From: Morchella semilibera
Taxonomy: Eukaryota > Ascomycota > Pezizomycetes > Pezizales > Morchellaceae
Length of the DNA stretch: 64,000 nucleotides
Assembly: GCA_009192285.1 (NCBI GenBank)
Contig: WBVU01000003.1
Coordinates: 3,193,973 to 3,257,972 of the forward strand
Reading direction: 5' to 3'
Shown: in pieces, positions 19,762 to 50,299 of the stretch
Position numbering within the stretch: position 1 is the first letter of the stretch
Layout: each line of letters begins with the position of its first letter
The notes under the pieces: generated by a model
What the model was told of the DNA's origin: nothing
The model's database searches: none
The model's input: only the letters and a program-made list of their open reading frames with translations
Position numbers and translations under genes: made by a program

Positions 19762-20140
19762 TATGGTGCGGCGCGCCTTAAAGGTGACATAAATTGCACT
19801 ACGAATAACTTTTTAACCAGACAGGATATCAAAAATCTATGAAGCCAAATTGTAGGTATAGGTATGATAAAGATTTTGGCTTCATAGATTTTTGATATCT
19901 TGTCTTATTAAAAAGTTATTAGCGATGCCATTTACCTGTTTTTGTATGTAAAAAGCGCCAAGACCTGGTGAAGTGGAACAGTATTATAACCATTTATACC
20001 CCTCCACCACAGAGTTGTGGCTAAGATAGCCATAAAGTGGCTGGATTACAATGCTCTAATTGGTTCAAAAGCATTCGGAGTAGCCAAGATTGTTCCAGCT
20101 GAAATACCGACATGTCACCTTTAAGACGCGCCGCACCATA
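19762..20140. mobile_element. 379-bp MITE with 29-bp terminal repeats and inner hairpin
   Basis: The ends are inverted copies: TATGGTGCGGCGCG(C/T)CTTAAAGGTGACAT at 19762-19790 and, reversed, at 20112-20140, with one mismatch in 29. Both ends carry TA, matching the TA target duplication of Tc1/mariner-type elements. Inside, 19804-19849 pairs with 19875-19920 (43 of 46 positions) around a 25-nt loop. No open frame exists, so it is non-autonomous. The remaining right part has smaller stems (for example CCACCACAGAGTTGTGG). Confidence 0.88.
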
Positions 20141-31455: not shown

Positions 31456-34400
31456 TCAAACAGGACAAGCCCCTGTTGGTTGGTTTTTGGCGCCCGCAGT
31501 TGTTATAATTGACCTCCCCATATGCTTTATGTCACCTACTGTCGCATTCTTCAATACCCTTTTTATAGGCCTTCCATCAGGCCCCATCTCAAGCTTTTTT
31601 GCCAATGACTCTAGCTCTAATTGATTAGACTTCCTCCACTTGCCAAACGGGAGTGATTTTTTCGAGCGCAGTTCCTCAAACCTTCGTAGGTCCTTAGCAC
31701 GTTGGTCGGCCTTTTCCTTCCGTGTTTTCATGCTGCTTTTGATTCTCAGGAGTGCTTTGTTACGCCGAAGTTGCATTTCGGCTTGTCTCTTGGTCAGATA
31801 TGTCTCTTGGGATGCGGTTATGGTAAGGGTTACAGATCGTACAGATCTGGGACTTTGATTGGGCAACAATCTAGATTTACCCTTAAGCTTTTCAGTCTCT
31901 TTGGAGCTCCCGCTGCAGTATACATCATGTGAGGCGCCCCCTCCTTCAGTGTCTGCCTGTAGTGTATATTGGTTGATATCAAGTTCATCTGCACCATCAT
32001 TTGGAGCGGTATATTCTAGCTCTTCAAAGGATGATCTCAGCCTTCCAGGCTCCTCAGATTTACTTTTTCGTAGAGGAGGGAATATATTGGCCACCCAGGA
32101 TGCGGTTCTTCCCGTGATAGTCCCGACTAACAGAGGTCCTGAAAGACTAATCCCATCTATATTTAGTAATCTTTCAGCACCTTGGCATTCAAATAGGTCT
32201 TCAACGGCATTATTTTGAGGTTTTGGGTCATTTATCTTCTCATTTTTCGGCGGCCGCGGTTTCTCCGATGCCCTTCGACTACTCGGTATCCCACTGGTTT
32301 TTCTCCAAGGGGAGCTAGCATTATAGCTTGAAGGGGCTAGAAAATAAGCGAACTTATCCCACATAACCTCTTTCCAACCCTTCTTTGTCTGTGTCTTCGT
32401 TTCCAATGCAGCACCATCAAATGAAACATATGAGGATTGATCGGATAGCGCACAGTGATTAGACTGGTTTGCTTCTACAGAGCTCCTAGAAAGCCTCAAA
32501 GGGACTATATTGTTTGCAGTAGATAGCAACGGCTCCCAACTTCTCTGCGCCCGGACATCAAGGTTGTAAAGAGTACCTTGGTTGCGATTCTCCCTTTTGG
32601 TTCGCCTGCGAGATAATATGCGTGAAAGTAGGGACTTTCGTTGTGCTTTTAAATAGCTTTGTGACTCTGACTCCGAAGATTGTATTAACGGGAGTGAGCC
32701 TGTCGAGTCAGTTGTACCAGCCGGTTCTTGATACTCATAATCTAAAACTTGGAGATGTTCCGCCCCTTTACCTAACCGTGGCAGTGTTTTTGCCCTCACG
32801 TGATTAAGATTCAAAGTATTTGGCAAGTTGCGAAGCGTAGATTGTACCCTCGAAATTTTGATTTCTCGAGTACTATGAGATGCATGCTTGGTGCGGTGTT
32901 AGGTCCACCGCTGTATCAAATTATCGAAATCTTAGAAGATGGACATACAGTTGATTTGGTGCCTTCTGGCTCTAAGCCAAAATGTTTTCTCCATTCTCTT
33001 TCATCCTCAATAGTGCTCATGAACCGAATCCCCGATTGATCAAACTTTTCCACAGACTCATCGGGATTGCTTGAATTAGAGTCACCACCAAATGGGGATT
33101 CGAGCTGCTCATTTGAGATCTTGAGAGAAGGTGCCGCACCCTCTTCCTGCGAAATTTGGTCTACTGTCTTTAGCTCTAGAGACGCCCTGGAGTCAGTGGT
33201 ATCGATTATCCCGGCGGCTTTCAACATAGTTACATAAGAACCGGCTGTTGAAGGGGTTGTAGGTGAGGAGGGAGAGACTCGAGTTTTACGGACGAAGCTG
33301 TGTTCAGCCTCCAAGTCCGCAATTTTCCATGCCTTCTTTCTGTCTTCAACTACCATAATTGCCGAGCCCCAGCCACGCCCTGCACGCTGCCAATCATCTC
33401 TCATTTTCCATCTTTCTTCATCCAGCTCTCGTGTAACTTCTAAAATATCCGCACCACGCTCAGCTAGCACCTGTTTGCGTTCGTCGAGAGCGGCTTTTAT
33501 CTCTCGAACACCGAAACTCGTTGAAGATCTCAAATGTCTTCGCGGATTTCGTGGCCAACGGATAGGCCCTAGGCTGCTTCGAAGATGGTATTCTTCTAGC
33601 ATCAATTTTTTAAGGCCCCCAGAAAAATCCGCGACCCCAAGCCAACACTGAACTGGTGGTATACCTGAGTTCTGCGGTCTCCAAGATACTAGGTAAAGGA
33701 GATTGCCATTATCTTGAAATTTGTGGGCTATGATCCTGAGGACCTCGCCATTAGCCAATAGTAGCTTCTGGGTTTGTTCTTGTTTCGACTCAGAGTGGGG
33801 CATCACTCGCGACCAGTTGGAACTACTCGAACTAGGGCTGATGACATAACGATGTGATCCCAAGCCTTCTACACAATAGCCCGGTGATTGCGGCTTTTCC
33901 GGTGACATAATTTGTGACCGTGAAGAAGCCGGTGTGTCTTTTGGCTCGTACGTCGTTTCAGAGTGAAGAGAAAGTGGCTTCTCGGGGTCTTCTCCAGACC
34001 CAGACGACTCAGATCGTGAGTTGTACACACTTCTAAGTTCTCGGGACCGCACCAAGGTATATGCATCTTTCATCGAGGTTTTCGTTAAATCCAAAACGCC
34101 AGGATCAGAGAATCTAGGGGTACTTAGTGTCTTGGTTCCCCTCTGAATTTTTGTATGATGGGCCCCATCCATCTGCTGTATTGTATTCTCATGTCCAGGA
34201 TTAAGAAGGTGCGCAGACCCCCGAAGCGAAAGAAGTGGACTAGGGAGATTCAGAGAGCTGATACTCTTGGGACTGACCAAAAGGTCTGTCAACCCATGGG
34301 TGCTACTTTCCTCGCCCGAAAAGCTCAGGTGCCCATACTGCAAGGACCCAGTCACCAGCAACGTATTTTTCCGACGTGGCTTTGTAATCATAATTAGCAA

Positions 34401-34833
34401 GAGTCCCGTAGTCGACTCTGCAAGTTTGTCCACATACCTTCAGAATCTCTTCCACATCACCCCCCTCCTCCAGCCTCCTCCACTCATCCTCCCATCTAGA
34501 GGCTCGCTGTTGATACGCCTTCACCGATAGCCTCAGCTCCATCTCCTTCATCCGCTCCTGCTCATCCATCCACTCGTTCTGCTCCTCCATAAAGCTTCTG
34601 TACAATTTGGCCGCCTCAGTTGAGTCGTGGCGGTGCCGGTAGAGATGCTGGGCATGGGAAACACGGCGTAGATGCTCCTGGTGACGGATCTCCTCAACGT
34701 CCCAGAAGTACCCGCGAGAGTTTGATGGTAGGAAACGGGATGATGCGAACATCTTTGCAAGGAGCCTGTCCCCGCCTGTTTTAGTCAAGGCAGAGGAAGA
34801 GGAGTTGGCGGGGGGAGAAGGGTTGGAAAACAT
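31456..34833 (-). CDS. large coiled-coil protein of unknown function
   Basis: Three exons on the minus strand: 34833-34438, 34337-32949, 32886-31456; 1071 residues, all junctions in phase 0. Introns are 99 and 62 nt. The acceptor at 32887 is the only one that joins exon 3 without a stop. Residues about 60-130 are a charged helix rich in E/R/W (M-E-E-Q-N-E-W-M-D-E-Q). A segment at about 325-385 has a hydrophobic/aromatic pattern (L-L-Y-L-V-S-W ... C-W-L-G-V) faintly like a chromodomain, which is inference only. About 405-450 is a coiled coil (D-E-R-K-Q-V-L-A-E-R). Residues about 955-1010 are a strongly basic helix (K-T-R-K-E-K-A-D-Q-R-A-K). Long Ser/Pro-rich linkers lie between. No signal peptide. 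The overall look suggests a nuclear or scaffolding protein, but no family is recognised. Confidence 0.72.
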
Positions 34834-39848: not shown

Positions 39849-41793
39849 AGGTAGAGCGGGCTTGTTGTGTATGCATGTAGACTCTTTTTTTTTTATATCT
39901 CTCCTGTGCTTTGGTTTATAGGGCGTTCTTTTTTTTTTTATATATATCATATGATCTTTTCACGAAAACTATTGTAACTTTATGTAATTGCTGTGTTTAA
40001 GCACTTTTTTTTTTTACCCATCAGTTACGAAAGTTCCAATTGCGAAGATTTAAAACAACTCGTGATCGAACTGCCCCCCCATTCTGCCACGAGCCAATAC
40101 GTTATGCCGGCCAACTCCGCCAGTAAGCAACCGGTCAGTGTGCACTAGCGGAAACCCGCACCGAGGATCCGTACCTACAATATCCCGGAGCTCGGTGTCG
40201 TCGGTACCCCTGTGGCGGTGCACTGTCGGAGAGCCGCCGGGATGCATGCAGCAGCAGCAGCAGCAGAACACAAAAATATTCCCCGGTATGGTTGGGATAA
40301 GCTTTTTGATGCACTCCTGTCCTGTCATGCGACCACGGGCAGGGCAGAACTCGGGCTGATGGCCGAAGTGGGGGTCCCAACATGATGTTTGGTTCGGTTG
40401 TGATCTACCGGAGAGCTGTAGGGCGTTGTGAGTGTCTGGAACAACCGGCGGGTAAGTAATGAAGGTTTATCCCCATGGGAGAAGACCGATATCACTCTTG
40501 CTCTTGTGTGTGTGTGTGTTCACCAGAAATCACTCGCTTTCCGTATTGTTGTTTCCCCGAGCACTGTCGGCTTTAGTGGCCGGGGACTAGATGTATTTGC
40601 CTGGTACACACACACAATATGTGACTGTCTTATATGGATAAGTATGCAAGACAGCTCTAGATCTCTTGTCCTGTAGCCAGTCAATAGAACCAAGTCTCGC
40701 ACTGTCCAGTCTAGCCAGATTGCAGCGTGGGGTTCCGTGTTTTGGCTTTCGAATGTATGCATTGTCTTATAAGACAGTCATAGGCACTCTAGTCTGCTGC
40801 CCTTGGAAGCAATGGAATTACAGTAAGGAAGAGGGGCGTGGGGGTGTTTGGCTATTGTGCGAATGCTCTGCTGGGGGTTTATCGGAGGCATATTATAAAT
40901 GCATTTACTGGCATAGAAGAGCAGAGATGTAGGTTATTTACACGATCCATTATACATGTACTCTGCAAGCCAAACAAGCCAAACAATCTTGCCAGTCAAC
41001 TCAAGGTCTTCTACGCACATCCCCATGTCTCGCCCACAGAAAAAGGGAGAGCGAGATCGCCAATTAAACGACCTGGTTAAGGAGTCTAGCTGAATGTAAA
41101 TGTGTATATGATATTCATGACGACATGTTTCGACGCCCACGGATAAACTGTGTATCTGTTTCATTTGAAGGCCCGGGGGCGCTACGACCTGCCAGCTAGC
41201 CCACAACTACAACAAAAACGAGTGTGGAGAGAGACATAATATGAGCTGTATATACTTTCTATCCTCATGCTCATGCTCATGCTCATACACGTAGCTATGG
41301 ACTACATATGGCACATACATGCACTTACATCTAGCCATATCGACACAACGAGTGTCAAAGTGCCAAAGATCACCAGATACAGATAGATTAAATACCGGCC
41401 GGCCTACATACAATCCATGGCAGATACAGCATCTGAAAAGCCCATGTATCCAACATCGACGACATCGCTGCATAGCCAATGGGCAATGGGCAGGCAACTC
41501 GGAGTCCACCCGGCCGGTTGTTCTCTACATATGTAAAAATCTGTACCTACTCGGGAGGTGTCAACGGTCACTGCCAAGCAACGCTATAACTCCCTGTAGC
41601 CCCGATGGGCTTGCATTAGATCTTTTTTATAGGGGAATATCGGCTAATTAGGTAGAGATCAATCACTTTGAATATACACGGTTTTTGCAAATGTCATGTA
41701 TGGATACCCTACTCGGGACGATTTTGTGTGTACTGTACCTATTTCACTTTTTTTTTTTTTTTTTTTTTTTTTACAGAATATGACCATGAACGC
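39849..41793. other. intergenic upstream of the LTR retrotransposon
   Basis: No supported gene. It contains T-runs (39885, 40005), a (GCA)6 tract at about 40246-40265, (GT)n at 40506, a (CATGCT)n-like tract at 41268-41285 and a 24-nt T-run (41749-41772) that ends 21 nt before the left LTR. Confidence 0.55.
41790..41793 (+). repeat. target-site duplication, left copy
   Basis: ACGC directly before the left LTR equals ACGC at 50296-50299 directly after the right LTR. AACGC (5 bp) also fits if the LTR is taken one base shorter. Confidence 0.75.
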
Positions 41794-42115
41794 TGTGGGG
41801 CGAAGATTAGGCAACCAGCGTGTAAGCGAGGGTTGGGAGCGCGGCTAGAGATTAGCGCGCCTTGGCGCCTTGGCGATGTTTTGTCACGTGGCGCGTTTGA
41901 TAGTTCTCTGCTTTGTTTCCTTTCGTTCATCTCCACCTATCATCATCAACAATATCATCAGTTTCACGTTTCATCGGCTCGATCATAGTTTCGAGCATAT
42001 GAGCACTGTGAATAGGTGAACCAATCAAATAATCAAAATCATCGTCACTAACGCCTCTATCTAATCTAAACCTCTTTCTCTACCCAAAACCTCTATTCTC
42101 GTGTCCGCAGCCACA
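41794..42115 (+). repeat. left LTR
   Basis: Starts TG, ends CA. Identical by eye to 49974-50295, constant offset of 8180 bases without gaps. Contains several CATCAT motifs and a GTCACGTG box at about 41883-41890. Confidence 0.96.
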
Positions 42116-42117
42116 AC

Positions 42118-42133
42118 TGGTGACCCCGACGTG
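42118..42133 (+). promoter_or_regulatory. tRNA primer-binding site
   Basis: TGGTGACCCCGACGTG begins with TGG, the complement of a tRNA CCA end, two bases after the LTR. The tRNA identity was not determined. Confidence 0.7.
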
Positions 42134-42244
42134 ATTCTTTCTCACGGGGACAGAGTCCAATTGTTTCGTCTCTCCATTTCATCGTCGTTTCATCAAAATC
42201 TGCCGTCCTCAGGTGCCGTTCGAGTCATCAAGGACCTGAAGAGG

Positions 42245-45200
42245 ATGAGCCCGAGAAAAAAGGCTCACACCTCAGAACCAAAGGCACCGTTAGCATCACC
42301 TCCAGACTCATCCTCACCTCCAGATCCATCTTCACCTCCCCTCACGATAATTGGACCATCGTCATCACCCCCTGACGTCAGCTCACCACCAGTCGAAACA
42401 TCTCTCACGGAAACAATTCACGCACCAATCATGTCTATCCCTGCAACTAAATTCTACGGCAGAGCGAATGAAGATGTGGATTCCTTCGTCAGATCGATCG
42501 AGGTTAACTTTATCCCCCAGTCCTCTTTCTATACCACGGCGGATGATCAGAACGCCGCAAAGCTATCTATTCTCAAGAGTAAGCTTAGGAGCAAGGCTGC
42601 TAGATGGATCGCGAATCAACCCAGGAGCATCACCTCATCGTGGCCAGATATCGTTCAAGCCCTCAAAAGCAAGTATGATAACGCCGGAATGAACGAAGAA
42701 AGGAGGCGTGATTCAGAGAACAAGCTCCTCAAGTTGAAGCAGGGTAAAGATTCGCTGAAGAGATACCTAAAGAAAGCTATTAGGATCAATGAGAACCTAT
42801 CCTCACAGTGGGATGATACTGCTGCAAAACGGTTCATCTTGGGCATCAAGAAGGAGAACACACGCTGCTTGGTCATTGCAATGGGGCAGCTTGGGGACAC
42901 GTATACCTTTGCTCAAGCAATCAATGCAGTTAAGATGATGTTGAGAACGTCATCTAAATCAAGTAAGAGGAGGAGGCATGACGACGAGGAAGAGGAGGAT
43001 TCCGAAGAAGATGGCTCTAGCGCTGAGTCAGATGATGAGAGTAGCAGTGGGGACGATGGAGAGAGCAGCAGTGAAGAAGAGATGCGGCGCAAAAAGAAGA
43101 AGAAGAGCACCAAGAGGGGTAAGGTCGTCATTGATCGCGAGGACTTGCTGAAGCTCCTAGCGGATCTCAAGGTGAAGACCCAAGAAAAGCCTGCCGAAAG
43201 AGTCATCAACCTGGCCCCGGAAACCGAAGTCTACGGCGTGCAGGGGAATGATCAAGCTCGAGCACCAGAAACGGAAACTTACGCTGTGCAGCGAAGGCCT
43301 GGTCCCCAAGGCGCCTACAACGCAGGGTATCGGCCCGGGAATCAAGCTCCGCCGTTTCCGAATCAGTCATACGGGAATCAGTACGGCAATCAGCTGGGGT
43401 TCGGGTACGGAAATTCTGGGTACGCAAATCAGTACGGCAATCAACCTCCGTCGGGGCAGCACGGAAATCAGTTCGGGCATACCGGGTATCAGGGTAACCT
43501 GTATGGAAATCAGTCTCAAAATTCCTACGGATATCCTCAACGCCCGTTTGAACGGCGAGAATTCGGTAGTGGTGAAAGACGTCCTCCCGGCGTTTGTTAC
43601 AGGTGCGGCCAATATGGTCACTACAGCAACGATTGTATCAATCCTCCTCTATCCCGCGAAGACCAGTATAGAATTCGACAGAAGAATGAAGAAGAGATGG
43701 CTCAGAGGATCCTGGCAAAATATCAGCCCGAGAACGTCAGAGCACCCGAAAATAGACTGGGGACAAACGGACAGTCGAATGATGCTCGCATGAATCCTCC
43801 ACCGCCCCCACAGCAGAACGCCAATTCAGTCGACTTCTGGAGGGGAGTCCCAGAAGATATGCAGGCGCCTGAATCATCGCTCGTGGAATGGTACGACTCG
43901 AACGCAGCGGACAAAAGAGAAGGCGAGGTGGCTTTTGGGAGCCGCTGGAATAGTGCTACTCCTTCCGTGCCGCCTGCAAACAGAAGAAGACTCAGCACGA
44001 CCGTAGAAAGCGAGTCTGATGATAACGAGAGGGGTAGCGTTTCACGCAGCAGAGCCAAGACGTCCGAGACCCCTGCCTCCGCGGGAGCAAACGAAAGAGA
44101 ATACACACCTCCTGGAGCGAAGAAGAAGATTCAGGCCTCCACAGTGTGCCCCAAGGACATAAGAATGATGCGGGATCAAGCTGGTGAAGACGTCGTAGCC
44201 AGGCTCAGAGACACTCCTATCAACGGGCTCACCTGGGGTAAGCTTCTCAACATAGCCCCCGCCGTCAGAAGGGAGGTTGCGAAGAGTCTAGTTCAAGAGA
44301 GGACTCCGAGCACCCCCAAGAAGTCCGTCAAGTTTAAAGAACCTCCTGCCTCCACTCCAGAAGCCGAAATGGAAGACGTCCTCGCCGTTGATACTGCCGG
44401 CCAGAATCGTGCAGGTCCTGATGACGGACCAGTGATCAACTTCTACACCTACGGTAGGATTCGTGTGCCGGGTAAGGGATACTACGGTATCAGCAGGATC
44501 CTCGTTGATGCGGGTTCAGTCATCAACCTTATGCCCGAAGCAGTCGCCGAGGAGATGGGCTTAAGTAAGCAAATCAGTCCTCAGTTTAACGTGAAGACGG
44601 CAGATGGAAGCATCGCGGTGATTGATCGCATGGTCACCGTGGATCTCGAGGTAGCAAACGTCTCCGCTACTATTAACTGCTATCTAATGCCTGGTCCGGG
44701 TAAACCTGCGTACGCTATCCTCCTGAGTCGTCGATGGCTTAGGCAGTGCCATGCAAAAGGCGACTATAGGACCAGCACCTACGTCATTAAGGACCAAGCC
44801 GGTAATGAATATCTCGTTCCCGCGATGGAGGGAATGAAGACCAAGTCTCCGCGGGTATCACTTCGAATCCCGCAGTCAGCAATTGTCGATTTAGACGAGG
44901 AGACGCTTGAAGACCTGGAAGGCGGCGAGCAACTCATGGCTCAGATTATCGCCCAGATAATCAGAGAGACGAAGGAGCAAGATGCTCTGGACACTCTCGA
45001 AACGTTCTCTGTTTCCACCTCCGTTCCCGAGTCCGATGTTACGGACTCCCGATCCTTTTATCGCCCCTCCGAGTCTGATGTTACAGACTCCCGCCCCCTT
45101 TTCCACCCGTCCTCCCCAGGGTCCAATGTGACGGACCTTCACCTCCTATTCTACCCGTCCGATCCTGATCCTCCCCTCCTCCCCTCACACCCTGCCGTCG

Positions 45201-45304
45201 CTGCCGCCGGAGGCCTAATCCTCCAATCACCCCCGACGGCCATCTATAGCGTCAATCTCGATGGCGCTCCTGGAGAACAGGATTTAAAAGCCTGCCGTTA
45301 CTAG
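42245..45304 (+). CDS. retrotransposon Gag-protease polyprotein
   Basis: Structural protein and protease of the element; 1019 residues from the first ATG (the frame is open back into the LTR but has no earlier ATG). Residues about 67-232 match the retrotransposon capsid domain (F-Y-G-R-A-N-E-D-V-D-S-F ... A-A-R-W-I). Then comes an acidic Ser/Glu stretch followed by a Lys-run (about 244-295). About 361-430 is rich in Tyr-Gly-Asn-Gln repeats. A CCHC zinc knuckle C-Y-R-C-G-Q-Y-G-H-Y-S-N-D-C lies at 451-464. The aspartic protease active site at 755-757 is D-A-G rather than D-S/T-G; the flap and the I-L-L-S-R-R-W-L block follow. The C-terminus has three imperfect repeats with V-T-D. The last codons carry the slippery heptamer. 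Confidence 0.93.
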   Translation: MSPRKKAHTSEPKAPLASPPDSSSPPDPSSPPLTIIGPSSSPPDVSSPPVETSLTETIHAPIMSIPATKFYGRANEDVDSFVRSIEVNFIPQSSFYTTADDQNAAKLSILKSKLRSKAARWIANQPRSITSSWPDIVQALKSKYDNAGMNEERRRDSENKLLKLKQGKDSLKRYLKKAIRINENLSSQWDDTAAKRFILGIKKENTRCLVIAMGQLGDTYTFAQAINAVKMMLRTSSKSSKRRRHDDEEEEDSEEDGSSAESDDESSSGDDGESSSEEEMRRKKKKKSTKRGKVVIDREDLLKLLADLKVKTQEKPAERVINLAPETEVYGVQGNDQARAPETETYAVQRRPGPQGAYNAGYRPGNQAPPFPNQSYGNQYGNQLGFGYGNSGYANQYGNQPPSGQHGNQFGHTGYQGNLYGNQSQNSYGYPQRPFERREFGSGERRPPGVCYRCGQYGHYSNDCINPPLSREDQYRIRQKNEEEMAQRILAKYQPENVRAPENRLGTNGQSNDARMNPPPPPQQNANSVDFWRGVPEDMQAPESSLVEWYDSNAADKREGEVAFGSRWNSATPSVPPANRRRLSTTVESESDDNERGSVSRSRAKTSETPASAGANEREYTPPGAKKKIQASTVCPKDIRMMRDQAGEDVVARLRDTPINGLTWGKLLNIAPAVRREVAKSLVQERTPSTPKKSVKFKEPPASTPEAEMEDVLAVDTAGQNRAGPDDGPVINFYTYGRIRVPGKGYYGISRILVDAGSVINLMPEAVAEEMGLSKQISPQFNVKTADGSIAVIDRMVTVDLEVANVSATINCYLMPGPGKPAYAILLSRRWLRQCHAKGDYRTSTYVIKDQAGNEYLVPAMEGMKTKSPRVSLRIPQSAIVDLDEETLEDLEGGEQLMAQIIAQIIRETKEQDALDTLETFSVSTSVPESDVTDSRSFYRPSESDVTDSRPLFHPSSPGSNVTDLHLLFYPSDPDPPLLPSHPAVAAAGGLILQSPPTAIYSVNLDGAPGEQDLKACRY

Positions 45305-45344
45305 GCCGCCGGGGGTCTGGTAACGGGGTAGAGTACTCCCCCGG
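45283..45344 (+). promoter_or_regulatory. predicted -1 ribosomal frameshift signal (slippery site plus pseudoknot)
   Basis: T TTA AAA at 45283-45289 is in the gag frame as X XXY YYZ. After a 5-nt spacer, stem 1 (45295-45304 with 45317-45326) has 10 pairs: nine Watson-Crick and one U-G. Seven bases in its loop (CCGGGGG, 45309-45315) pair perfectly with CCCCCGG at 45338-45344, giving an H-type pseudoknot with short loops of 4 and 11 nt. The gag stop TAG (45302-45304) lies in stem 1. All pairings were checked base by base; function is inference. Confidence 0.8.
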
Positions 45345-45828
45345 TAGGTACAGGAAAAAGGACCCCCCCCGCGTGGTAGAAACGCGGACGAGGGGAGGAA
45401 AAAGATGGGGTGGAGAAAGCCCCATCTTCGACGAACCTGGTGGGTTCGTTGAAATAAACAAAAAGAAGAAGAAGAAGAAAAGTTCAGAAAGAGAAGGAAG
45501 CAGATGTGCCGCCGGCGGTTGCGGTGAAGGGTGTGAAGAGTTGTGCTGTTGTTCGTTGTTTGTCGGAGGTCCCCCTCCCGGTCAGATATCCCGAGCTAGA
45601 ATAGTAGGGACCGAGCCGGGAGAGTTGAGGGACCTCAACGGAGGAGACGAAGGGAAAGAAATGGAAGAAACAAGCGCGGGAAGGGGTGGAATCATAGAGG
45701 AAGTGAAAGACTCTCCCTCCCTGATCCTTGGGAAGAGCAGCATGACTGGACCGGTCCCTGCCGTTTTTAACGCCAACTCCAGCCCAGCACCGGAACATCA
45801 ATCCCCAGTCCCGCGGCTGCAGATATAG
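45289..45828 (+). other. trans-frame open region between gag-protease and pol
   Basis: The frame one base behind gag is open from 45250 to the TAG at 45826-45828, about 180 codons after the slippery site. It encodes a basic Lys-run (at about 45460-45482), then a Cys/Gly-rich patch and acidic sequence. There is no ATG near its start, so it would be reached only by frameshifting. It overlaps the pol frame, open from 45771. Not recognised as a domain; it may be a linker of the polyprotein or non-coding spacer. Confidence 0.5.
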
Positions 45829-45907
45829 CCGCAGCGGGGATCGAGGAGCTGGAGAAGTATGGGACCCGCTATCCTGCACCTCCGAAGGAGGATGGCAGTA
45901 AAAAGGA

Positions 45908-46006
45908 ATCAGGGCTGCAAAGGCCTGATTCACCCTCCGGATCGGGGCTACAAAGGCCCGACTCACCCTCCGGATCGGGGCTACAAAAGCCCGACTCTCT
46001 CTCCGA
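45908..46006 (+). repeat. three 33-bp tandem repeats
   Basis: Unit around CGGGGCTACAAAGGCCCGAC repeated with a 33-bp period. In the pol frame it encodes an 11-residue unit ending in P-D-S-P-S-G. The period keeps the frame, which supports this stretch being translated upstream of the first pol ATG. Confidence 0.8.
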
Positions 46007-46082
46007 CACCCAAAGTGCTGGAAAGAGCAGCAACCTGGGGGCCGGTTCCCCCAAAGCGTTGGTATCACTCTCCAGATGCCAA

Positions 46083-49000
46083 ATGAACGCTGGACCTTCC
46101 GAAATCGAACCTCCAGAGACAATCGACCGCCAAGCCTCACAAATCGGGGTTGAAGACGACAGCGAGGGGTACTTTCGCAACGTCCATGGCGCCTATTTCC
46201 CTCTAATCAGTAAAGATGATCGCGTTTATGGGATCAACACGACAGGATATCCTACGGAGAGGCGCCCCGCTGAGTTTCATCGCTGCGTAGACGAATCTAC
46301 TGAATCGGAGGTAATCGAGAAATGGTTCAGTGCCTGTAACATCACTATTGGGAAAGCGGTGACTCTTCCGGGCGATCGCCGCGCTGCGAAACGGTTACTA
46401 TACACCTGGAAAGACCTATTTGGGGACAATCTCGGCGATCTCCCCGAATGTAGACTAGCAAAACACTATATCCCTACGTATCCAGGGTCAATACCGCATC
46501 GCGCTACCAACCCCTTGTACACTGCTGAGGAAGTGGAGTGGATGAAGGTGAACCTACCCAAGATGTGCGATTCGGGTATCATTACACACTCCAATTCGCA
46601 GTGGAACAGTAAACCTAAATTTGTCCGCCGTAAGGACAACTCCCTCAGAATGGTGCATGTATTCTGCAAGCTCAATCAGGCGACTATCAAATTCAACACG
46701 CCCATGAAGAGAATAGAGCCTATCTTGCATAAGCTCATGCAAGAGAAATACCGGTGGTACTGGCAGGCTGATGCTTCAGTAGGGTATTGGGGCGTGCCGC
46801 TAGCTAAGGAGCATGCGTACAAAACCGCTTTCAACACCCCGTTTGGTCAGTTTTGCTACCTCCGGATGGGTATGGGATTAGCCGGCGCGGCGCACACCTA
46901 CGCGCGTATGAAAGACATCCTTGCCGGACCCATCCCCGCACCCAACGCAGAGCCCGGGATCGCTGTACAAAATGATCAGTCAGCGTTCGAATTCTTCATG
47001 GACGATGATTACGGAGCCCATACCACCTTCCAGACTCTGCATGACTTCCTCCACGATAGATACTTCCCGAGAATAGCATGGTCAGGGTTGAAGCTCAATC
47101 CCAAGAAGAGCAGTTTCTGGATGAAGTCGTTGAAGTTGCTGGGTTTTGCAGGTAGTGGAGAAGAAGGACTACGCCCGTCGATAGATAAGATCGGGGCAAT
47201 AGTCGATTACCCTACCCCCACCTCCGTCGCCGAAGTAGAGCGATTCCTTCACATTAGCACGTACTTGAAGCAATGGATACCGGGCCGATCAGAACATTCA
47301 CGCATTCTGAAGTCGTCTATCGTATGCCGAGTGGATAGCCTAGGCCGAAGGCAAGAGCTAGAGCTGGTATGGAAAGAAGCCCACCAACGATCGTTTGAGC
47401 ACATAAAATCAAGCATCGCCGAGAACGTAGTATGGGGAGGCGATCCTTCACTACAGTATCATCTGTCGACCGATGCATCCAATCACGCTATCGGCGCGGT
47501 GTTGTTCCAGCTTATCGGGCACCCGGCAGGCACGTTAGCCACCTCAAAACTTCGGGATGCCGAACGTGTTATAATGTTTATCTCGAAGCCGTTTGCTCCG
47601 GCGGAAACCCGATATCATGCTACTGAGCGCGAGGCGCTAGCAGTGGTGAGAGCACTTGCCGAAATTAGATGGCTAGTCCTAGGATCTCCATATCCGATCA
47701 AGATATATACGGATCATCAAGCTCTTCTCTCCGTGCTTAGGGGTGATGAGGCAAAAGGAAGGCTAGTGAGATGGCAAGTACAAATCTCCGAGTTCGATTT
47801 AGAATTCCACCACGTTCCGGGTACACAGAACGTGCTCGCAGATGGCATGTCGAGATTGAGGACGCGGCGGAATAGCGAATCATACTGCGAATCCGCTGCG
47901 GTCGGTGAAGTTTGGAGAGAAGAAGGCGAGGAGCAGGCTAGGGGTCTGAGAGAGAGATTAGAGAGATGGGGCGAGTGGATAAGTGATGAGTGGTACGGTC
48001 TTATAGTGGAGTATAAGCTTACCGGGGAGCTTCCCGTCCTGACGATCCTCAAGAGGATGAATAAGATAGCACCTGCGTCTGAGCCCGAATTAGCAAAGTG
48101 GAGGCGCAGACTAAAGCATCAATCAGCCCGATTCATACTAGTGGACGAAAGCCAAACAAGCACAGTCACTAAGAATCGCTGCTGCTCCCTTCTGTACATC
48201 GAAAAAAGCGCAGAGACAGCTATATGCGTGCGGAAAGATGAGGTTAAACCTACTCTTCGCTGGGCCCACGATATTCACGGACACTTCGCCGAGTCTATCA
48301 CCCTGAAGAAGCTAATCGGAAGATATTATTGGCCGACTAGACACCGAGATGCTTCGTATTACTGTCGATCGTGTGACTCATGTCAGCGAGTTGGTCCTCT
48401 AAAGCCTTCTCAAGACTTACTACCGATCTTCCAGCTTCAACCTATGGATATGTGGGGCATGGACTTCCTTGGGCCGATCGCACCCGTGTCTGTGAAAGGA
48501 AATCGGTATGTGCTAATAGTCGTGGACTACTTCACCCGGTATCTGTTTGCGAAACCCGTGCCGAAAGCCGACAGCGCCGAAGTAGTGAAATCGTTGATCG
48601 AGCTAAGTCGATTCGTAGGATGGCCGAGAGCAATATATCACGATAATGGATCACACTTCGTGAGTCAGGAAGTGCAGCAGCTTCTAGCATCATTCGGCGT
48701 GAAGCAGTATCCAGCGCCTAAATCTCACCCCCAGTCAGTTGGACTCGCGGAACGGTACGTCCAGTTAATCGTCGTGGGTCTGCGAACCTTGATGTCGACC
48801 TCTGAAGAAACACGATTAGTATGGGATCAGGTGCTTCCACAGGTAGTCCACGCGATCAATACTAGAATCATTAGGACGCACGGGTATACGCCTAGCCAGC
48901 TCCTTTTCGGGTACAATGTACGCAAGACTCGATTTGATGCCACTCCCCGCGATCAAATAGTGTCGGCAGTTCTCGCAGACACGCTGAAGTCCTCAACACC

Positions 49001-49490
49001 AGGAGACCTGGAAGCGTGGATCTTCAACCTCCGAGCATCAAAACTGGAAGAGCTCAGGGACACCGTGCGTGAAAAACTAGTCCGAAGATCTCCAGATAAG
49101 AAGAAGAGGTTATGGGAGTCTCCTAAAGAAGGCGATCTAGTGATGCTGCGTCGATTCGAGGTGGATCGTCAGCATGGACGCAAGTTTGAGGCGAAATGGG
49201 AAGGACCATACCGTCTAGACAAAGTATCGTGGCATGGCAAAACCGGGAGAGTATTCGATCTGAAGACGGGAGCCGAAGCACGCGTGAGAAAGTCGGGTCT
49301 TCACGAAAGGGTACACCTAGACGATCTCAAAGTTTACGTACCCCGAGAAGAGAGATGGTTAGGGCATGACGGTGATATAAGAGGTGGTCAGGGGATGAAA
49401 GAAGTAAGATTCGTCTGCGTCTGTGAGAGACTAGACGAAGTGGTGGAAGAAAGCGGCGTGATCGGTGAAGACGGCGTGATTTTCATTTAG
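46083..49490 (+). CDS. retrotransposon Pol: reverse transcriptase, RNase H, integrase
   Basis: Copies the RNA and inserts the DNA. The first ATG is at 46083 (1135 residues), but the frame is open from 45771 and the upstream sequence looks translated. Reverse transcriptase: W-Q-A-D-A-S ... F-C-Y-L-R-M-G-M-G-L, and the catalytic F-M-D-D at about 305-308. RNase H: S-T-D-A-S-N-H-A-I-G-A, E-R-E-A-L-A-V, T-D-H-Q-A-L. Integrase: an H-x3-H ... C-x2-C zinc finger (H-D-I-H-G-H, C-R-S-C-D-S-C), then the catalytic triad with Asp codons at 48462 and 48642 and Glu at 48750, exactly D-x35-E. The C-terminal part has the GPY/F-type block W-E-G-P-Y-R-L. No internal stops, so it is probably functional. Confidence 0.96.
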   Translation: MNAGPSEIEPPETIDRQASQIGVEDDSEGYFRNVHGAYFPLISKDDRVYGINTTGYPTERRPAEFHRCVDESTESEVIEKWFSACNITIGKAVTLPGDRRAAKRLLYTWKDLFGDNLGDLPECRLAKHYIPTYPGSIPHRATNPLYTAEEVEWMKVNLPKMCDSGIITHSNSQWNSKPKFVRRKDNSLRMVHVFCKLNQATIKFNTPMKRIEPILHKLMQEKYRWYWQADASVGYWGVPLAKEHAYKTAFNTPFGQFCYLRMGMGLAGAAHTYARMKDILAGPIPAPNAEPGIAVQNDQSAFEFFMDDDYGAHTTFQTLHDFLHDRYFPRIAWSGLKLNPKKSSFWMKSLKLLGFAGSGEEGLRPSIDKIGAIVDYPTPTSVAEVERFLHISTYLKQWIPGRSEHSRILKSSIVCRVDSLGRRQELELVWKEAHQRSFEHIKSSIAENVVWGGDPSLQYHLSTDASNHAIGAVLFQLIGHPAGTLATSKLRDAERVIMFISKPFAPAETRYHATEREALAVVRALAEIRWLVLGSPYPIKIYTDHQALLSVLRGDEAKGRLVRWQVQISEFDLEFHHVPGTQNVLADGMSRLRTRRNSESYCESAAVGEVWREEGEEQARGLRERLERWGEWISDEWYGLIVEYKLTGELPVLTILKRMNKIAPASEPELAKWRRRLKHQSARFILVDESQTSTVTKNRCCSLLYIEKSAETAICVRKDEVKPTLRWAHDIHGHFAESITLKKLIGRYYWPTRHRDASYYCRSCDSCQRVGPLKPSQDLLPIFQLQPMDMWGMDFLGPIAPVSVKGNRYVLIVVDYFTRYLFAKPVPKADSAEVVKSLIELSRFVGWPRAIYHDNGSHFVSQEVQQLLASFGVKQYPAPKSHPQSVGLAERYVQLIVVGLRTLMSTSEETRLVWDQVLPQVVHAINTRIIRTHGYTPSQLLFGYNVRKTRFDATPRDQIVSAVLADTLKSSTPGDLEAWIFNLRASKLEELRDTVREKLVRRSPDKKKRLWESPKEGDLVMLRRFEVDRQHGRKFEAKWEGPYRLDKVSWHGKTGRVFDLKTGAEARVRKSGLHERVHLDDLKVYVPREERWLGHDGDIRGGQGMKEVRFVCVCERLDEVVEESGVIGEDGVIFI

Positions 49491-49973
49491 TCGGCGGTGA
49501 AATTGGCGGTGAAGAAGACCATCAATCGATGGGAGACCTTATTTTTTTATTTCCTACGTTTATTAGTTAACGGCACAGAGCAAGCGGTAGGGAGCGGCGA
49601 TGATTTTCCTACGTATTAGCTAGCAAAGCGGTATGAAGCGGCGATGATTTTCCTACGTAGTAGTTAGCAAGCGGTGAAGCGGTGATGGTTTCTTATATCT
49701 TAGCTAGTGGATCGGCGGTGTACGGGGAAGATTTCGTGTGTTTGATGGCGGCATTCCTTATTTCCTATCTCTTAGATAGCAGAAGGCGGTCTGCGGTGAT
49801 GACGTTAAGGATGCGGAGATGCGGTGATGATAAGATAAGGCGGAGATCGAGAAGGCGGCAAGTGCAAAAGGCGGCGATGACGTATGCTTATAAGCATGGG
49901 GGATATTAGCTAGAAAAGTGGTGGATTTGGGAGCTAGTATAGCGTGGAACAAGAAAGAGAGAGAGGGGGTTGT
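49491..49973 (+). other. 3' untranslated region of the retrotransposon
   Basis: No coding. Contains imperfect repeats of about 50 bp built on GCGGCGATGATTTTCCTACGTA (near 49594 and 49640) and many GGCGGTGA/GCGGTGAT words. It ends in the purine tract and right LTR. Confidence 0.7.
49951..49969 (+). promoter_or_regulatory. polypurine tract
   Basis: AAGAAAGAGAGAGAGGGGG, 19 purines, ending 4 nt before the right LTR. Primes plus-strand synthesis in this element class. Confidence 0.85.
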
Positions 49974-50295
49974 TGTGGGGCGAAGATTAGGCAACCAGCG
50001 TGTAAGCGAGGGTTGGGAGCGCGGCTAGAGATTAGCGCGCCTTGGCGCCTTGGCGATGTTTTGTCACGTGGCGCGTTTGATAGTTCTCTGCTTTGTTTCC
50101 TTTCGTTCATCTCCACCTATCATCATCAACAATATCATCAGTTTCACGTTTCATCGGCTCGATCATAGTTTCGAGCATATGAGCACTGTGAATAGGTGAA
50201 CCAATCAAATAATCAAAATCATCGTCACTAACGCCTCTATCTAATCTAAACCTCTTTCTCTACCCAAAACCTCTATTCTCGTGTCCGCAGCCACA
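49974..50295 (+). repeat. right LTR
   Basis: 322 bp, identical by eye to 41794-42115. Followed by the second ACGC target copy at 50296-50299. Confidence 0.96.
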
Positions 50296-50299
50296 ACGC

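Follow-up and report, generated by a model that had tools for sequence, protein, structure and literature searches.

How does a retrotransposon obtain its reverse transcriptase when a stop codon closes the reading frame in front of it? The question is raised by a long terminal repeat (LTR) retrotransposon of the Ty3/gypsy type in the ascomycete Morchella semilibera, located at positions 41794-50295 of a 64,000-nucleotide stretch of contig WBVU01000003.1 (hereafter the window, whose numbering is used throughout). The first open reading frame (ORF1) of the element encodes Gag and a protease and ends at a TAG codon, and the second (ORF2) encodes reverse transcriptase (RT), RNase H and integrase. 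We interpret positions 45283-45344, at the end of ORF1, as a −1 programmed ribosomal frameshift signal of the retrotransposon family, with a probability of roughly 0.87 as judged from the sequence. At the level of the family, a −1 frameshift is very likely, since the strong pseudoknot score at this site is rare, the slippery heptamer is kept in every copy found, and the −1 frame is open, shows signs of selection and lacks an early AUG.

The candidate signal at the gag boundary

The slippery heptamer T TTA AAA occupies positions 45283-45289 and lies in the gag frame, with the codon TTA starting at 45284. It is followed by a spacer of 5 nucleotides (nt; 45290-45294) and by the 5' arm of a first stem (45295-45304), which holds the gag stop codon TAG (45302-45304), so that 12 nt separate the heptamer from the stop. 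The 5' arm pairs with positions 45317-45326 to form a stem of 10 base pairs (bp), including one U.G pair. A second stem of 7 bp, G-C throughout, is formed by CCGGGGG (45309-45315) and CCCCCGG (45338-45344). The stems follow each other in the order a-b-a'-b' and leave predicted loops of 4, 1 and 11 nt. The heptamer has the form X XXY YYZ in the zero frame and is located within the overlap of the two ORFs. In −1 frameshifting the downstream structure is expected about 5-9 nt from the heptamer, and the spacer of 5 nt falls within this range. The original prediction, which had placed the TTTAAAA heptamer, the spacer and both stems here, was borne out in its coordinates and its description by direct reading of the sequence.

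The likelihood of a chance origin was estimated in several ways. With strict heptamers defined as those ending in A, C or T, the one at 45283-45289 is the only strict in-frame shift heptamer in the 1079 codons of the gag ORF; one further AAAAAAG was found near its 5' end. Codon shuffling gave 1.47 strict heptamers per gag, which corresponds to 0.025 per overlap of 18 codons. The pseudoknot score, which sums stacking energies within geometry limits set by us and is not a full pseudoknot energy model, was not matched once when the 85 nt located 3' of the heptamer were dinucleotide-shuffled 1000 times. It was reached at 12 of 127,830 positions on both strands of the window, representing two places with six registers each. 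The only place besides the signal with an equally strong score is at 19905-19910 on the minus strand. The shuffles and the whole-window scans agree with the earlier claim that a chance match of all parts is improbable. A search of positions 45150-45550 against Rfam gave three matches at E values up to 5, the best with an E value of 0.24, all of them far under the gathering scores.

According to the proposed mechanism, most ribosomes would halt at the TAG codon inside stem 1 and release Gag-protease. The strong fold located 5 nt downstream would hold the ribosome on U UUA AAA, and a minority of ribosomes would slip back by one base into the overlapping ORF2 and produce a Gag-Pro-Pol fusion, so that the enzymes would be made in smaller amounts than the coat protein. 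With the lower part of a competing nested fold opened by the ribosome, the active structure would most likely be an H-type pseudoknot. That ribosomes slip here, how often they do so and that the pseudoknot is the structure at work are what we infer.

Reading frames in the copies of the element

We scanned the genome (56.8 Mb, 23 contigs) for copies by similarity to the boundary, a procedure by which copies without the boundary would escape the count. Ten copies of the boundary were found, and a pattern search allowing up to three mismatches likewise gave ten. The frames around the heptamer were read at 19 loci, several of which represent the same copy. In three of the ten copies (C22, C11 and C8), ORF1 is open over 1044-1063 codons and the −1 frame, which takes in RT, RNase H and integrase, over 1416-1449 codons. 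The −1 frame in these copies starts 66 nt upstream of the heptamer and overlaps ORF1 by about 85 nt. Its first AUG is codon 309, 145 or 307, as compared to codon 23 for the heptamer, and is thus located at least 122 codons beyond the heptamer in all three.

Downstream of the gag stop, the ratio of nonsynonymous to synonymous substitution rates (dN/dS) in the −1 frame was 0.47, 0.25 and 0.49 in three pairwise comparisons, as compared to 0.78-2.0 in the other two frames; the pair L021-L025 rests on only 14 changes. No stop codons were found in the −1 frame downstream of the gag stop, as compared to 9-11 in the other two frames. These values are signs of purifying selection on ORF2 in the open copies, and we infer that ORF2 is read by ribosomes that arrive from gag and enter it immediately past the heptamer. 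The earlier claim that Gag-protease ends in a −1 frameshift site is upheld by second ORFs that are open exactly −1 from the heptamer, by the lack of a nearby AUG and by the signs of selection.

The −1 frame is a coding sequence continuous with the downstream gene in these three copies, but not in the window copy. Seven of the ten copies, including the one in the window, have interruptions in ORF1, in the −1 frame or in both, and in the six of them outside the window the −1 frame closes 93-732 nt downstream of the heptamer. The ORF entered by the shift in the window copy (45250-45828), which is the start of ORF2 and contains no Pfam domain, ends at a TAG codon at 45826-45828. The rest of ORF2 (45771-49490), with the Pfam domains RVT_1, RT_RNaseH, Integrase_H2C2 and rve, lies in a further frame, and a single slip can therefore not reach RT in this copy. 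The original prediction had missed the stop at 45826-45828; the boundary signal that it described stands, but the signal alone gives no Gag-Pol here.

Since each later ORF of the window copy is −1 relative to the preceding one, two successive −1 shifts from gag through the middle ORF to pol, as in betaretroviruses, would in principle account for the arrangement. We consider this extremely unlikely and rejected it, as the overlap at 45771-45828 lacks an XXXYYYZ heptamer in the middle frame. Moreover, the middle and pol parts form one open frame in three of the ten copies, and the single open frame of C11 matches the two window ORFs in succession. In the absence of a heptamer in the right frame, the second frame change seems to reflect damage to this copy, or an error of assembly, rather than a second programmed shift. 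Because the LTRs of the window copy are identical, the break would be recent, or else the copy was moved by the proteins of other copies. The window copy probably yields Gag-protease and a dead-end −1 product.

Alternative readings and the shape of the putative stimulator

The heptamer, the spacing and the TAG codon are kept in all ten copies, and the check on whether other copies retain the heptamer, on which the original prediction could have failed, thus came out in its favor. Only three columns are substituted within positions 45283-45345. The spacer position 45294 is G in four copies and T in six, the stem 1 position 45296 has changed from C to U in one copy, by which a C-G pair becomes U-G and the pairing is kept, and the loop position 45333 is A in two copies. 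None of the substitutions among the ten copies breaks a pair of the pseudoknot.

Several observations weigh against the frameshift reading. The agreement among the copies is partly a matter of ascertainment, since they were found via similarity to this same stretch. The conservation of the signal is not exceptional, as variation is equally low in 389 of 2283 stretches of this length, and that synonymous changes are missing from the first 21 codons is only slightly surprising. One copy, C23b, is one base short in the C run of the 3' arm of stem 2. No two-sided covariation in the stems was found in the five distinct rows to which the ten copies reduce, although this test, which the original prediction had proposed, is uninformative because the copies are nearly identical in this region. 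The second frame break, by which the window copy gains no RT from the slip, and the competing fold treated below also belong here, as does P0076, the more distant of two Gag-Pro relatives, in which the protein does not end in Leu-Lys plus four residues. The invariance of the site is compatible with function without demonstrating it.

The Gag-Pro search gave two hits in all, P0075 and P0076. The first of these is 50% identical to the window protein over residues 456-976 and ends in LKASRC, as compared to LKACRY in the window, such that the Leu-Lys and its distance to the end are common to both, a similarity that speaks for the frameshift reading. About 100 residues preceding the Leu-Lys in the window protein do not align with P0075. 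The comparison is at the protein level only.

Could the heptamer and the stems be an accident of a G+C-rich boundary, with pol expressed by its own initiation, by bypass of the stop or by splicing? The lack of covariation leaves room for this explanation, as does the fact that the frameshift reading derives from sequence analysis, but we consider it very unlikely. Independent initiation is at odds with the position of the first AUG in the selected −1 frame of the three open copies, and the low chance figures (no match in 1000 shuffles, two places in 127,830 positions, 0.025 heptamers per overlap) argue against coincidence. With respect to splicing, the window sequence has no convincing intron. 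It contains 47 possible GT-AG introns of 40-400 nt that would join the frames, all of which lack both a GTRNG donor and a CTRAY branch site, and the joining of ORF1 and ORF2 by splicing is thought unlikely on this basis.

The identity of the fold is a separate question. The H-type pseudoknot of the original prediction agrees with the two interleaved stems and with workable loops, but it gains nothing from two-sided changes, and a nested fold roughly equals or exceeds it in stability. For positions 45290-45350 in free RNA, RNAfold predicts a three-way nested structure with a minimum free energy of −35.2 kcal/mol, as compared to an estimate of about −26.6 kcal/mol for the pseudoknot in the window sequence, which includes a Dirks-Pierce penalty of 9.6. 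It is therefore conceivable, if somewhat doubtful, that the −1 shift is real and that its stimulator is this nested fold, in which stem 1, as a 13-bp hairpin, is joined by another small hairpin and by a lower stem. Stem 1 alone extends via pairs within the loop to 13 bp, with −21.8 kcal/mol, and in copy C19b the pseudoknot estimate of −24.5 kcal/mol is weaker than the −25.4 kcal/mol of the nested fold from position 45295 on. However, the base of the nested fold would be covered by a ribosome paused on the heptamer, and the part from 45295 on would then leave −25.4 kcal/mol against the estimate for the pseudoknot in the window sequence. In addition, the T at position 45294 in six of the ten copies breaks a pair of the lower stem at a cost of 4.7 kcal/mol, so that the nested fold is weakened to −30.5 kcal/mol, as computed for C11 and C22, with no effect on the pseudoknot; a perfect 7-bp G-C second stem is also improbable by chance, as the shuffles indicate. 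We favor the pseudoknot over the nested fold by about two to one, and not more.

The two LTRs are identical over 323 of 323 aligned bases in C11 and over 306 of 306 in C8, and are 90.6% identical over 235 bases in C22. Counted in blocks of 63 bases, the number of substituted columns is 1-13 in most blocks between position 44251 and about 46140, where one block, at 45700, reaches 31, and 35-50 from 46204 on. Further on, the pol DNA is 78-84% identical in several copies, and the synonymous divergence (dS) reaches 1.4 between two open copies. At the loci L005, L006, L008 and L018, the divergence is approximately 4-11% over window positions 43719-45701 and 16-22% over 46096-46894, the latter mostly synonymous. 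The step in divergence between the end of gag and pol looks like the result of mosaic elements, likely formed by recombination between subfamilies rather than by constraint. Just upstream of the heptamer, at 45214-45266, the window copy is 48 nt longer than C22, C8, C3, C11 and C6, a multiple of three. The insertion sites appear to be ACGT or ACGC in all six copies examined, with ACGC on both sides of the window copy, ACGT on both sides of C8, C4 and C11, and ACGT at the 5' end of C22 and C3, which may represent a target-site preference.

The element, its relatives and known systems

The window element is bordered by a 5' LTR (41794-42115; TGTG...CACA) and a 3' LTR (49974-50295) that are identical to each other; 324 of 324 aligned bases agree, the last two of which lie beyond the CACA. 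A 4-base target repeat, ACGC, flanks both ends (41790-41793 and 50296-50299). ORF1 (42065-45304) has matches above the Pfam cut-offs to Retrotrans_gag and zf-CCHC, the latter with a CCHC knuckle, and a match to an aspartyl protease at residues 811-878 with the motif DAGS (E value 1e-4), which is under the curated cut-off. The best-scoring solved chain for the window pol is Ty3 Gag-Pol, and Pfam scans identified neither a protease in pol nor a chromodomain in the element. The LTR pair, a gag with CCHC and the order RT-RNase H-integrase place the element in Ty3/gypsy (Metaviridae). In the usual Ty3/gypsy layout, which is common and not required, the protease opens the pol ORF. The protease match of the window element lies instead in ORF1, and with gag and protease both there, only RT, RNase H and integrase would be rationed by the shift. 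Two tandem repeats were also observed, one of 33 nt in three units in the N-terminal part of ORF2 (45908-46006) and one of 44 nt in two units between pol and the 3' LTR (49582-49669). Elsewhere in the window, a minus-strand ORF of 507 codons (32919-34439) has ten relatives at an E value of 1e-10, none with a precomputed Pfam domain.

Among the closer relatives of pol are proteins from Morchella sextelata (62% identity), Coleophoma cylindrospora (36%) and Aspergillus fumigatus (38%), which by themselves point to a probable ascomycete host. P0075 resembles the window element in having a protease match in its Gag-Pro. No protease was detected in the pol relatives P0004-P0006, P0008 and P0009 at an E value of 0.05, and a protease domain is listed in the precomputed Pfam annotation of three of 61 pol relatives (P0042, P0045 and P0055, with at most 27% identity). 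Such absences are weak evidence, since the protease of the window element itself falls under the Pfam cut-off. At the DNA level, no plasmid match was found for the pol piece, one pattern search of viral contigs gave no matches and another 49, and a search of genome contigs gave 61; none of these matches was confirmed. The covariation of the stems can thus be assessed only on the ten copies of this genome.

A distant Ty3 family in the same genome, with a pol about 28% identical to that of the window element, has a similar boundary. L037 (583-625) and L039 (584-626) contain G TTA AAA, 5 nt and a perfect 8-bp stem that encloses the gag stop, with the −1 frame open over 1219 codons in L037 and 132 codons in L039. 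Together with L040, they are the three of 14 distant loci that passed the signal scan, and no pseudoknot was found in a scan of these three. At L040 (604-650) and L035 (420-466), the gag TAG is directly preceded by G GGT TTT and may be followed by a stem. We tentatively suggest that a clade of fungal Ty3-type elements may have moved the switch downstream of the protease, and that a signal composed of [T/G] UUA AAA, a spacer of 5 nt and a stable stem around the gag stop codon has been rebuilt with different stem sequences in families as distant as those of the window element and L037/L039.

Saccharomyces Ty3 encodes a related RT, RNase H and integrase, as indicated by the top rank of its Gag-Pol. 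The boundary of the window element is similar to the gag-pro/pol boundary of avian alpharetroviruses, in which the protease is in the gag frame, a −1 shift precedes RT and the stimulator is a pseudoknot; these are retroviruses with env and a different heptamer. The mammalian genes PEG10 and Ma3 are domesticated and belong to another sequence family. According to a review (PMC5009743), these Ty3-derived genes have pseudoknot stimulators. Ma3 combines a classical heptamer with an H-type pseudoknot and a −1 shift, the arrangement proposed for the window element. In the same text, many LTR elements are described with −1 gag-pol layouts and classical heptamers, fungi have both +1 and −1 layouts, and a cellular gene of the Pezizomycotina is frameshifted, mostly by −1; yeast Ty3 shifts by +1 (PMC5009743), in contrast to the −1 tandem slippage proposed for the window element. 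The Gypsy elements VdLTRE2-4 of Verticillium share with it LTRs, RT, RNase H, integrase and a gag/pol overlap with pol in the −1 frame, but they are reported to have a chromodomain and to carry the protease in POL, and the available part of their description mentions no stimulator (PMC3441728). In Candida albicans Tca2, likewise a retrotransposon of a fungus, a potential pseudoknot lies downstream of the gag stop, but as far as the available text goes this element has a UGA stop between gag and pol, bypassed in an unclear manner, and no −1 overlap (PMC2194720). Among titles and opening lines of abstracts on pseudoknot frameshifting in fungal Ty3/gypsy elements, none gave an account of this element.

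The −1 shift is a well-known device, and the general picture of recoding is unchanged by the finding. The element adds a member to a known family, from which it departs chiefly in having the protease encoded ahead of the shift. It provides a well-formed −1 signal with a candidate pseudoknot in an ascomycete Ty3-type element, where the best-studied case, yeast Ty3, shifts by +1, and with ten copies of known sequence the site is easy to test in yeast reporters. The gag-frame location of the protease determines which activities need rationing, and if the suggestion of a common clade is true, the protease would be made at the level of Gag, and only RT, RNase H and integrase would be rationed, across that clade.
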